Source: Pirellulales bacterium (GTDB taxonomy: Bacteria; Planctomycetota; Planctomycetia; Pirellulales; JADZDJ01). From it: 36,051 nucleotides of DNA. Both the position numbers and the translations under genes were made by a program. The notes under the pieces are model-generated. The model saw only the letters and a list, made by a program, of their open reading frames with translations. It was not told the origin of the DNA and ran no database searches. Where the stretch lies: assembly GCA_035656635.1 (NCBI GenBank), contig DASRSD010000140.1, positions 1 through 36,051 of the forward strand. The letters run 5' to 3'. This document shows positions 30,914 through 35,215 of this stretch, one piece after another; within the stretch, counting starts at the first letter, position 1; each line of letters begins with the position of its first letter.

Positions 30914-33601
30914 ATGGCCAGTCCGTTTCGCACGTTTCGCAAAAATCAGAAGGCTTGGATGGTCGTGTTGACCATCCTCAGCATGTTTGCCTTCGTCGTT
31001 TTGGGTTCCTCCGGCCGCATGGGCAGCGCGCTGGGCAAGCGCGAAGATCCCGAAATTTTTACGTGGGATTTTGGGACCGTTCATCGCAGCGATTTAAATT
31101 ATCGCAAAACGGTTTTGCATGCGTTAAATCAATTTCTGTTAGCTGCCTGCACGCAAGCCGGACTAACGCCGCAGCAGGCTGCCCAATACCAAATTCCCAT
31201 CACGGAACAGAACATGGTTGCGACCATGTTGCTCGATAAAAAGGCCGAGCAAATGGGAATTGTCGTCAGCGACGCCGTCGCCAACAGCTACATTAACACT
31301 CTCACCGAGAACAAGCTGAGTCCACAGGAATTGGCCAACATCGTTCGGAATGTATCGCAGCACTACGATGGCATTGGTCAGAGCCAACTGTTCGATGCGC
31401 TGCGAATGCAAATGGCTGCAAATTATGCCCAGCGGGCTTTCAGTCCGCTTTTGAATCGCATCCAGCAGTTCGGCCAGGGCATGCAGTTTGCCGTCTTCCA
31501 CGGCGATACTCCTGGCGACCGCTGGGATTACTTCTGCCGCTTAAACCGCAAAGTAACGGCGCAATTTCTGCCGGTGGCGGTGAATAAATTTGTGGATCAA
31601 ATTCCTGATCCCAGCCCGGAACAACTGAAAAGCTTTTACGAGCAATACAAAACCGCCGAGCCCGATCCGAACAGCCCCAACCCTGGTTTCCGTCAGCCGT
31701 TCAAAGCGAAGTTCCAGTACATCAAGGCAGATTACGAGCAACTGCTGGCTGCCGAATCGCCGAAAATTACGCAGCAGGAAATTAAAGATTATTACGACAA
31801 TCACCAGGAAGAATTCAAAAAGACCAAGCTCCCCGAACTGCCCGGCGATAAAGAATCGACCGAGGGCCCGTCCGAAAGCAAAGCAGGCGAAAAAGCCGCC
31901 GGAGGAACAAAAACCGACGAGGTGAAATCGAAATCGGGCGAGACGAAATCGACCGATTCCAAAGCGAGCGACGCAAAATCTTCTGATTCCAAATCAAGTG
32001 CCGCCAAATCCGACGCTGGCAAATCGGGCAGCACAAAATCGAGCGATTCGAAATCGGGCGATTTGAAAGGCGGCGCGAAGGGAGATCAAAAAACGGGCGG
32101 CGCCAAGAGTGACGCCAAATCTTCCGACGCCAAAAAATCGGACAGCCAGAAAAAATCGGACGATCAAACGAAGTCAGGGAGCGATAAGCAATCGAGCGTT
32201 TTCCCTGCGGCTTCGCCCGCCGGAAAATTAACGATGACGACCTCGCTAAACGGCGAGCAGTTAGCGCTGGCCGATGCTCCGCCTGCCACGCAAGGCCCGG
32301 CCACACAAGCCCCGGCGACCCAACCGCCAGCAGCCAAATCGTCGGTCCCCGCTGCTGCCGACGCCAAAGCGCCTGCGGCAAAATCAGCCGCTGCCCCGTC
32401 GACCGCAAAATCTCCTATTGCGAAGTCTGCCGACGCCAAATCGGCCGGTGGCAAGACGGATGCAAAGTCCACAGACGCCAAATCATCGGACGCGAAAACG
32501 GCGGATACTAAGTCCACGGATGCTAAATCCTCTGCCGCCCACGCAGCGGAAGGAAAGACCCCGGCTGCCGAGCCGCCTGTCGAATACGATCCGCTCGATA
32601 AAGTTGCCGACACCATTCGCAATCGGCTGGCGCAACAACAGGTCGATAAGCAGGTTGACGATGCCTTCTCCGCCATTGAATCGCAAATTCTGCAGTACAA
32701 CCGCGGCCTGGAAACCTATCGGGCGGCAGTGAGTCGCGGCAACAAAACGGCCAAAAAGCCGGAACCGCCCGACCTTACAGCATTAGCCAAGCCCTACGGA
32801 TTGGAAGCCAAAGAAACCGACCTGGTTTCAATCCTGGATGCGTACAATCACACCGATTTGGGCAAATCGCGCCGTTCGCTGGTGGCTGGCGATTACACCG
32901 CGCCCTCGTTTGTGCAACTGGCCTATCAACTCGATTCCAGCGGTCAGCCGATGTTGGCCATCTTTCAACCGCAGCGCAGCGACGACAACGACAACAACCG
33001 CTACCTGTGGTGGAAAATTGCCGACGAAACTGCTCGCACGCCGACGCTGGAAGAGATTAAGCCGGAAGTCACTTTGCGCTGGAAAATGGTTCAAGCGCGC
33101 AAGCCGGCATTGGCCAAAGCCAACGAAGACGCTGCCGAAGCCCGCAAACTCAAAGAAACTTTGAAGGAAGCCTTCGGCTCCGCGCCCGATAATGGCTTAG
33201 TTACCGCCGGGCCGTTCAGTTGGCTCACGCAACCGGTCGGACAACTCTTCGGGGCGCCCCGACTCACGCAAGTATCCGGCCTGGAGCAAGTGGGCTTCGA
33301 TTTTATGAAAAGCGTGTTCACATTGAAAACCAGCGAAACCGGAGTGGCCGCCAACGAACCGCAAACCATTTATTACGTGGTGCAAATCGAAAGCGAAGAA
33401 CCCACGCTGGACGCGCTCCATGAGGAATTCCTGACTAAAATGTCCAACGACATGTCAGTCATTCCTTACGCCTACGTGGGCGCCCAAGAAAATGGCGGTC
33501 TGATGACCGCCTGGTTTAAGGAAGTGCAGAACGAATTCGGCTACCAGCTGGCGCCCGGCGAAACGCTATCCGAAAGCCGCAGTGCCGCTGCGGAAGATTA
33601 A
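30914..33601 (+). CDS. Membrane-anchored SurA/PpiD-like protein with long Lys/Ser/Asp/Ala-rich insert
   Basis: 895 residues. An N-terminal cytoplasmic stub and one helix (about 13-33, KAWMVVLTILSMFAFVVLGS) anchor it, as in PpiD. Residues about 35-300 are helical and SurA-N-like, ending in KITQQEIKDYYDNHQEEFKK, a typical chaperone-to-foldase junction. From about 303 to 552 runs about 250 residues of low complexity (KSSDAKSSDSK and AKSADAK words, then Ala/Pro/Thr stretches). The ordered part resumes at PPVEYDPLDKVADTIRNRLAQ and contains Trp- and Gln-rich segments of unclear fold. I see no clear parvulin active-site signature, so isomerase activity is doubtful. Role inferred: envelope protein folding. 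Ribosome site AGGAA; the TPR gene follows after 27 bases. Confidence 0.8.
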   Translation: MASPFRTFRKNQKAWMVVLTILSMFAFVVLGSSGRMGSALGKREDPEIFTWDFGTVHRSDLNYRKTVLHALNQFLLAACTQAGLTPQQAAQYQIPITEQNMVATMLLDKKAEQMGIVVSDAVANSYINTLTENKLSPQELANIVRNVSQHYDGIGQSQLFDALRMQMAANYAQRAFSPLLNRIQQFGQGMQFAVFHGDTPGDRWDYFCRLNRKVTAQFLPVAVNKFVDQIPDPSPEQLKSFYEQYKTAEPDPNSPNPGFRQPFKAKFQYIKADYEQLLAAESPKITQQEIKDYYDNHQEEFKKTKLPELPGDKESTEGPSESKAGEKAAGGTKTDEVKSKSGETKSTDSKASDAKSSDSKSSAAKSDAGKSGSTKSSDSKSGDLKGGAKGDQKTGGAKSDAKSSDAKKSDSQKKSDDQTKSGSDKQSSVFPAASPAGKLTMTTSLNGEQLALADAPPATQGPATQAPATQPPAAKSSVPAAADAKAPAAKSAAAPSTAKSPIAKSADAKSAGGKTDAKSTDAKSSDAKTADTKSTDAKSSAAHAAEGKTPAAEPPVEYDPLDKVADTIRNRLAQQQVDKQVDDAFSAIESQILQYNRGLETYRAAVSRGNKTAKKPEPPDLTALAKPYGLEAKETDLVSILDAYNHTDLGKSRRSLVAGDYTAPSFVQLAYQLDSSGQPMLAIFQPQRSDDNDNNRYLWWKIADETARTPTLEEIKPEVTLRWKMVQARKPALAKANEDAAEARKLKETLKEAFGSAPDNGLVTAGPFSWLTQPVGQLFGAPRLTQVSGLEQVGFDFMKSVFTLKTSETGVAANEPQTIYYVVQIESEEPTLDALHEEFLTKMSNDMSVIPYAYVGAQENGGLMTAWFKEVQNEFGYQLAPGETLSESRSAAAED
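31890..32550 (+). repeat. Degenerate coding repeat (Lys-Ser-Asp-Ala words)
   Basis: Within the SurA-like gene, variants of AAATCnnnCGAn and GACGCCAAATC recur dozens of times. They encode SSDSK, SSDAK, SADAK, STDAK and similar pentapeptides. The reading frame is kept throughout. It probably grew by slippage and recombination. Confidence 0.8.
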
Positions 33602-34015: not shown

Positions 34016-34036
34016 AACCAACGCGCCGATAATTTT

Positions 34037-34157
34037 GGTGGTCGCCTAATATGAAAAAATGCAGGCGTCTGTCTCCAGACGCCTGCTGTTTTCTCGAACA
34101 AAAGCGGCTGTGGACAGCCGTCGCTACATTGCCGAGCGGCCAAATTAGGCGACCATC
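34037..34157. repeat. Nested palindromic element enclosing two hairpins
   Basis: Outer arms GGTGGTCGCCTAAT (about 34037-34050) and ATTAGGCGACCATC (about 34144-34157) match at 13 of 14 positions. Inside are the 11-bp terminator stem (34061-34086) and a perfect CGGCTG/CAGCCG hairpin (34105-34120). It resembles a MITE or composite terminator between two convergent genes. Confidence 0.75.
34061..34093. terminator. Bidirectional intrinsic terminator
   Basis: GCAGGCGTCTG, loop TCTC, CAGACGCCTGC: a perfect 11-bp stem at 34061-34086. On the plus strand it is followed by TGTTTTC, and on the minus strand by ATTTTTTC. It would end both the TPR gene and the small basic-protein gene. Confidence 0.85.
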
Positions 34158-34162
34158 ATTTT

Positions 34163-34336
34163 TTAATCCAGGCCGATCAAATGCTTCACGGTCTCGACGA
34201 CCGTTTTACGCCGCTTGACGCGCCGAGTACGCCGCTTTTTGACGTTCGCCTTAACGCGGACGGTCGCTTTCTTGATCGCTTTGCCGCGAGCTTCCTGCCT
34301 TGCCGCCCGGCGTTTCATTGCACGCTTCTTGGCCAT
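34163..34336 (-). CDS. Very basic 57-residue protein
   Basis: It starts at the ATG at 34336, preceded by AAAGGA with 6-base spacing; a longer in-frame start at 34450 lacks such a site. The sequence begins MAKKRAMKRRAARQEARGKA. About 24 of 57 residues are Lys or Arg (42%), with no aromatic residue and no Cys. The last 13 residues form a short hydrophobic helix (TVVETVKHLIGLD). It could bind nucleic acid, or be a small ribosome- or nucleoid-associated protein. I cannot name a family. A terminator follows, so it is its own transcription unit. Confidence 0.72.
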   Translation of the reverse strand: MAKKRAMKRRAARQEARGKAIKKATVRVKANVKKRRTRRVKRRKTVVETVKHLIGLD

Positions 34337-34713
34337 GGTTAATCCTTTGAATTGAAGTGAACTATTTTGTGCCAGCTTGTTGCCACAATATACAATGGGC
34401 CTTTTGGAAGACAAGCGCCGCTGTGGCCAGCTTCTGTCTGAAGACCCCATTTATACAAGCGAGCGGTAGTGATGCATTTTGAAGTGAACTACATTGGGTG
34501 GCCGGGGGTCGAGTGCCGCCGAGCCCCCCGGAATGCTACCCGCTGGGGGCTCCTTTCGGTCGACCCCAGCCACCCTGCGGAAGCAAAGTGCATCCACGAC
34601 CGCGAGCTGCCAATCGTTGCCTGCGGCACACTATGTGCAGGGCAGTAGTGGGGGGCGTGTAATTTTCTAAAACGATTCGCCTATCAGCGATTCATCTTCC
34701 AGGAGGAAACATC
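34337..34713. other. Divergent intergenic region holding a large palindrome
   Basis: About 377 bases between the divergent small-protein genes. It holds the palindromic element at 34471-34596 and, near the right end, the strong AGGAGGA ribosome site (34701-34707). No promoter pair was convincing, and no gene was seen in it. Confidence 0.5.
34471..34596. repeat. Large palindromic element, REP/MITE-like
   Basis: Three nested arm pairs: GATGCATTTT (34471) with AAAGTGCATC (about 34585-34594); GGGTGGCCGGGGGTCGA (34496-34512) with TCGACCCCAGCCACCC (34560-34575), one bulge and one mismatch; and GAGCCCCC (34521-34528) with GGGGGCTC (34545-34552). It would fold into a long G/C-rich hairpin on either strand. 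I recall GGGTGGCTGGGGGTCGA-type sequences as common in planctomycete genomes, so this may be a dispersed family. Confidence 0.75.
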
Positions 34714-34968
34714 ATGGCTATGCAGAATCAAGCTCAACCCACCAAGGAAGCCCAAAAAACTAAGCGTCCGGACGACCAAGGAGAAATGAATAAAACCGGT
34801 CACGAGAAGCAAAATTCCGGTCAAAACCAAGGTCAGGAATATGGCCAAAACCAGGGACAAAAGCCCATGCGGAATCCGGACGAGCAAAACAAAAATCGCG
34901 ATGAGGGGAACCAACCTCGACGCGAAGAAAAAACTCACAGCGAGCAAGGCAAATCTTGTGGCTCCTGA
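34714..34968 (+). CDS. Disordered Gln/Asn-rich 84-residue protein
   Basis: Supported by the best Shine-Dalgarno sequence of the window (AGGAGGA, 6-base spacing) and a strong terminator just after it. The 84 residues contain 15 Gln and 9 Asn. There is no Leu, Ile, Val, Phe or Trp at all, so no folded core is possible. A GQNQGQ motif occurs at 36-41 and 44-49. Charges are mixed (Lys, Arg, Glu, Asp), and one Cys lies near the end. The composition resembles desiccation- or stress-related hydrophilins. I do not recognise a family; the role is inferred from composition only. Confidence 0.75.
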   Translation: MAMQNQAQPTKEAQKTKRPDDQGEMNKTGHEKQNSGQNQGQEYGQNQGQKPMRNPDEQNKNRDEGNQPRREEKTHSEQGKSCGS

Positions 34969-35003
34969 GTAAATGCGCTCGTCAGAAACTGCTACTTTTT
35001 ATG

Positions 35004-35046
35004 CCAGCGTGATCGACCGTCGATCGCGCTGGTGTTTTTGTTTTTC
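35004..35046 (+). terminator. Intrinsic terminator after the Gln/Asn-rich gene
   Basis: CCAGCGTGATCGA (35004-35016), loop CCG, TCGATCGCGCTGG (35020-35032): a 13-bp stem with one G-T pair. TGTTTTTGTTTTTC follows. Confidence 0.9.
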
Positions 35047-35215
35047 TTGAGTGTTCGCCACCGGCAAAATCTCTTGGCCATTCAGTCTGGCGGCGTTGCT
35101 TTGTAGTATCCAAGGCTGCTCTGTTGTGCTGGTCGGCAGTGGCAACCGTGCGACCGGTTTGCTATACTTCCGGGGGGATTGATCAAAATCGGCTACTGGC
35201 AGGTAAGGAGTTTCC

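Follow-up and report, generated by a model that had tools for sequence, protein, structure and literature searches.

Results

An 84-codon open reading frame free of five core hydrophobic residues

Analysis of a 36,051-nucleotide stretch of Pirellulales DNA (hereafter, the window) identified an 84-codon open reading frame (ORF) that most likely represents a true gene whose product is disordered, and we consider it very probable that this ORF is a genuine translated gene. The encoded protein contains no Leu, Ile, Val, Phe or Trp (LIVFW), and its ORF is bounded by a strong ribosome-binding site and an intrinsic terminator (Table 1). The full explanation that we favor, tentatively and with somewhat short of even confidence, is that of a real, free-standing small gene encoding a soluble, disordered protectant of the hydrophilin type. 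At present, the locus is best described as a well-formed orphan gene.

Table 1. Location of the 84-codon ORF and its associated elements in the window.
Feature	Position	Strand	Details
MITE-like repeat with terminal inverted repeats	34465..34601	.	137 bp; ends 112 bp 5' of the ATG
5' region, presumed promoter	34602..34713	+	
Shine-Dalgarno AGGAGG	34701..34706	+	7 nt 5' of the ATG; duplex -10.3 kcal/mol
Orphan ORF without L/I/V/F/W	34714..34968	+	84 aa; Q/N/K/E/G-rich; predicted disordered
GQNQGQ, copy 1	34819..34836	+	residues 36-41
GQNQGQ, copy 2	34843..34860	+	residues 44-49
Intrinsic terminator	35001..35035	+	16-bp stem, then T-rich tail TTTTGTTTTT; shuffle z -4.8

Recounting of the translation reproduced exactly the coordinates, the length of 84 residues, the absence of LIVFW, the 15 Gln and 9 Asn and the two GQNQGQ motifs reported in the initial annotation. 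Lys, Glu and Gly contribute nine residues each, and the protein, with a mass of approximately 9.6 kDa and a net charge close to zero (approximately +1), also contains four Met, three Ala, one Tyr and a single, C-terminal Cys. Gln and Asn make up 29% of the chain and charged residues 32%, so that these classes jointly account for 61% of it (51/84). The LIVFW-free stretch is frame-exact, beginning at the ATG preceded by the Shine-Dalgarno sequence and finishing at the stop codon. Upstream of the ATG at 34714, the frame stays open for 17 codons, and hydrophobic residues are present there (FSKTIRLSAIHLPGGNI before Met).

This LIVFW-free run is far from chance. The next-longest LIVFW-free, stop-free run in the window spans 53 codons and sits in a low-complexity part of an 895-aa ORF at 30914, and such runs reach no more than 36 codons in ten stretches sampled elsewhere in the genome. 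Similarly, 60 windows simulated under a Markov-1 model yielded runs that averaged 36 codons and peaked at 55. When the bases following the ATG were shuffled 200,000 times, no version of the ORF stayed free of LIVFW and stops, and the probability of such a run at the base composition of the ORF is approximately 3e-6. LIVFW-free runs as such are no rarity where the DNA of other organisms is GC-rich, with 191 runs of at least 70 codons in 1.14 Mb of fetched loci, a biased background in which most loci had been chosen by their Q/N motif and many are GC-rich; because of this bias, rarity was judged on the Markov simulations, the window and the ten same-genome stretches. The 895-aa ORF itself presents a weak SurA-like N-terminal match, below the Pfam cut-off, and a long repeated insert of the KSxDAKSS type, built from Ala, Lys, Ser and Asp (31925-32578), in which the window's next-longest LIVFW-free stretches lie.

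Gene signals and coding strand

To compare ribosome-binding sites, we computed anti-Shine-Dalgarno duplexes for 39 other non-overlapping ORFs of at least 60 aa in the window, each taken at its best start within the first 60 codons. The 84-codon ORF ranked first (-10.3 kcal/mol, versus -10.0 kcal/mol for the runner-up), bearing out by a narrow margin the earlier proposal that it carries the strongest ribosome site in the window. The strong terminator proposed alongside it was also recovered, as a 16-bp stem oriented for the + strand. A scan of 34602-34713 for sigma-70-like promoters returned none, and a sigma-54-like match at 34624-34639 was rejected as a promoter, since such matches occur at chance level (65 in the window, versus 84 expected). 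No RNA family reached its gathering threshold in the window.

The initial annotation had further described the protein as highly translated. The ribosome site agrees with this claim, whereas codon usage, like GC3, is atypical and does not support it. The synonymous-codon score of the ORF (-0.03) lies under those of all 77 reference pieces of 84 codons, drawn from 14 window ORFs (minimum 0.001). Its codon choice falls below genome-like synonymous choice (z -3.1) and lies 1.9 sd over uniform, random choice. GC3 is 0.49, versus 0.65 in seven ORFs of a ribosomal-protein cluster from the same genome, of which L14 was identified by Pfam and the remaining six are presumed ribosomal-protein genes from their place.

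The complementary strand contains a codon-aligned open frame of 87 aa (34684-34947, -) with an almost entirely hydrophobic translation. The frame is open because TTA and CTA (Leu) and TCA (Ser), the complements of stop codons, are absent from the sense frame, and it is a by-product of sense composition. We regard as improbable, and as the least likely of the readings considered here, that the sense frame encodes no protein, whether because the strand is merely T-poor or because the antisense ORF is the real gene. The antisense frame does possess an SD-like AGGAG (duplex -6.6), but this lies approximately 14 nt away from a TTG start. Its synonymous score (0.043) exceeds that of the sense frame, yet agrees with the values obtained when window genes are read in their shadow frames (mean 0.006, sd 0.082), and whereas a weak terminator-like hairpin is found near its end (34690-34677, 5-bp stem), the strong terminator and the best Shine-Dalgarno sequence are both on the + strand. 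A merely T-poor strand is likewise at odds with the distribution of T in the ORF, which is 5, 4 and 18 at codon positions 1, 2 and 3, respectively (chi-square p 0.001). Since T is rare at positions 1 and 2 only, the exclusion of LIVFW is tied to this reading frame, and its combination with retained third-position T suggests selection acting on the protein. The sense reading is hence preferred.

An orphan gene in a repeat-rich location

The 84-aa protein has no relative in the sets searched and is, in this sense, a taxonomically restricted orphan. It maps to no family in Pfam, NCBIfam or PHROGs and has no sequence match in the PDB, and tblastn searches against plasmids and phages returned no match. 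Scans of viral contigs and of 84,980 species, which reach close relatives only, yielded peptide-pattern matches in 2 and 14 stretches, respectively, and no confirmed locus. Besides itself, the single match in its own genome (E 0.17) has a stop inside. Among 57 relatives, matches at E<=1 were obtained in 24 genomes including its own (best other 0.039), and tblastn recovered 18 of 396 genomes of the same order at E<=0.05 (best other 0.0094) and 4 of 392 genomes of the same phylum at E<=0.01 (best other 0.0064), again counting its own; the three sets overlap, and in the latter two the best candidates, up to 13 per genome, were scored.

The weak matches whose loci were opened corresponded to parts of longer frames, stop-bearing frames or short frames in which no Met start was visible, and were judged by eye to be chance. 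The most tempting (L037, REEKTHAEQ versus REEKTHSEQ) falls within a 382-aa ORF, in antisense orientation, and a 28-residue stretch with 54% identity (L039) belongs to a frame of more than 900 codons. Re-scored E values of 3e-4 and 4e-8 stem from tiny databases, the latter also with composition correction off. At the DNA level, the 614-bp segment from the upstream repeat to the next ORF (34602-35215) is matched in two of the 57 genomes, one of them its own; in the other, the match is limited to approximately 30 bp at the terminator palindrome.

The 137-bp repeat upstream of the ORF starts with GGTAG and has at least 41 matches in its own genome, itself included (40 of 74 candidates scored), of which approximately 12 have the 5' leader and most others share the central part only. 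Twelve aligned copies present sharp common ends, and eight of the 11 other aligned copies match all 137 bp at 91-95%. The left end reads GGTAGTGATGCA and the right end, in other copies, TGCATCACTACC, which is degraded in the copy at 34465-34601. The repeat recalls the palindromic core and terminal GTAG of GTAG-tagged REPs, as outlined in PMC3733652, but its terminal inverted repeats are longer than those outlined there. A second MITE-like repeat (34030-34165) presents 18-bp inverted ends (TGGTGGTCGCCTAATATG and CAAATTAGGCGACCATCA) and, internally, a hairpin whose arms are 17 nt long. A search covering the surroundings of first-repeat copies and three other stretches located near-complete copies of 34041-34153 (83-86%) at L049/L183 and L053/L186, and a partial one at L056; the near-complete copies adjoin first-repeat copies, which under such sampling does not imply co-clustering. 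Between both repeats lies a second orphan, an extremely basic ORF of 57 aa (MAKKRAMKRRAARQEARGKAIKK..., 34163-34336, -) that matches no Pfam or NCBIfam family and, among 20 genomes, only its own.

The other ORFs adjoining the 84-codon ORF encode a TPR protein and a 278-aa product, cut by the contig end, with no family above cut-off; no stress-linked gene is found among them. The TPR gene matches a congener (L030), by protein, to residue 125, and the DNA match ends at approximately 33936, after which the contig of the congener carries other ORFs. The 84-codon ORF is thus placed near two MITE-like repeats, past the end of synteny. The use of synteny to date its arrival was discarded: because the match ends at that point and the next window gene was found in none of eight relatives (a query without positive control), the congener site is not allelic and is uninformative on timing.

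This setting bears on the possibility that the ORF is a translated orphan, newly arrived or newly born, whose disordered product is harmless and transient and has as yet no selected function. Such an origin is unlikely, albeit deserving of serious consideration, and would be in keeping with the lack of relatives in the sets searched, the narrow distribution of the 34602-35215 segment, the atypical codon usage and the proximity of two mobile-type repeat families beyond the congener DNA match. Against it, the strong Shine-Dalgarno sequence and terminator fit an established unit, and the frame-specific exclusion of LIVFW points to a protein under selection.

Predicted disorder and possible function

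The 84-aa chain, with a GRAVY of -2.34, little net charge and a composition dominated by Gln, Asn and charged residues, should not fold. Its charge-hydropathy (Uversky) boundary value of -0.50 falls on the disordered side, and a single-sequence AlphaFold2 model, which counts as weak evidence for want of an alignment, yielded a mean pLDDT of 61 and a pTM of 0.14; DSSP returned nothing on this model. Computed from sequence, these values support reading the "wholly disordered" protein of the initial annotation as very probably disordered.

Under the protectant explanation that we favor, the ORF would be expressed from its own short transcript, delimited by the observed ribosome site and terminator and by a presumed promoter. 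The core-free chain would then remain unfolded and hydrated, and might constitute a space-filling, water-holding molecular shield that separates other proteins when water is scarce or crowding increases, as supposed for hydrophilins. Translation, disorder in the cell and protection are, in this scheme, what we infer. The role in stress or desiccation put forward initially finds no support in homology, family assignment, neighboring genes or promoter, and, having composition for its basis, is a plausible guess.

The same composition could instead suit a small disordered partner or regulator, binding RNA, membrane or protein or forming condensates, with either its C-terminal Cys or its Q/N-rich repeats as the working part. 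The proportions of Gln and Asn and of charged residues are compatible with this role, as is the duplication of GQNQGQ, whose two copies differ in DNA at four sites, all of them third-codon positions, although this is a biased observation given that the copies were chosen for protein identity. The ORF shows no sign of an operon partner, however, having its own Shine-Dalgarno sequence and terminator and a preceding ORF on the opposite strand, and its net charge counts against simple nucleic-acid binding. We deem a partner or regulator, rather than a general protectant, improbable.

Comparison with look-alike ORFs and hydrophilins

KGG-motif proteins (PF10685) are small hydrophilic bacterial stress proteins. 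Pfam searches matched neither the KGG repeat nor any LEA family in the 84-aa protein (0 families at E up to 1), and PF10685 was absent at E<=0.001 from its own genome, with the control matched in three of 14 genomes.

Scanning for two QNQGQ motifs within 10 residues identified at least 120 loci. Among the matches listed, and counting frames of up to 260 codons, 26 motif-bearing ORFs are shorter than 200 aa, and three gene-sized ones are nearly LIVFW-free: one in Roseateles sp. YR242 (L175, 88 aa, GRAVY -2.37) and two copies, nearly identical to each other, in a single Rhodospirillaceae MAG, SJ625 (L100 and L137, 108 aa, GRAVY -2.35 for L100). Like the 84-aa ORF, all three are small, carry QNQGQ motifs, contain at most two LIVFW residues and lie 3' of a ribosome site (GGAGA), a resemblance that we count in favor of the protectant explanation. 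They are, in contrast, richer in Gln and Asn (45-47%, versus 29%) and poorer in charged residues (16-18%, versus 32%). These look-alikes were found via the motif, not by homology, and their similar composition does not amount to common descent. With the Roseateles look-alike as query, the genome of the window was unmatched, and the one match in 396 genomes of the order at E<=0.001 was rejected as a frame with four stops. It is conceivable, if rather unlikely, that short, core-free, Q/N/G-rich proteins with strong ribosome sites arise again and again, each time independently, in bacteria of unrelated phyla, and that the 84-aa orphan is one of them, a lineage-specific protectant without ancestry in known hydrophilins and recent in a repeat-rich site.

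Should the 84-aa protein be made and protective, it would indicate that gene signals and composition alone suffice to locate such protectants in cases that homology searches miss, and would provide a minimal case, devoid of Leu, Ile, Val, Phe and Trp, for how core-free chains protect.

The hydrophilin criteria of Garay-Arroyo et al. 2000, as restated in PMC4190154, comprise glycine above 6%, GRAVY below -1 and mean Hopp-Woods hydrophilicity above 1. With 10.7% glycine (9/84) and its strongly negative GRAVY, the 84-aa protein justifies "hydrophilin-like" as a description, but its mean hydrophilicity of 0.89 is under the nominal threshold. The hydrophilin pool reported in PMC4190154, with values of -0.3 to 1, also lies below that threshold. 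Because of the Hopp-Woods value, and because the hydrophilin definition is called not sufficient in that source, we do not file the protein as a member. Literature searches, at the level of titles and opening abstract lines, gave no planctomycete-specific result on hydrophilins. In Acinetobacter, two hydrophilins, DtpA and DtpB, support drying tolerance according to the account in PMC13232832, and a protectant function is therefore described in bacteria. Their gene cluster includes the catalase KatE, as that account describes it, whereas the 84-codon ORF stands alone, and the two are likened by description. The 84-aa protein shares with hydrophilins a high glycine content, a very low GRAVY, predicted disorder and a small, soluble nature, its GRAVY lying below the range of -1.86 to -1 given for the pool in PMC4190154, and it plausibly works like a hydrophilin.
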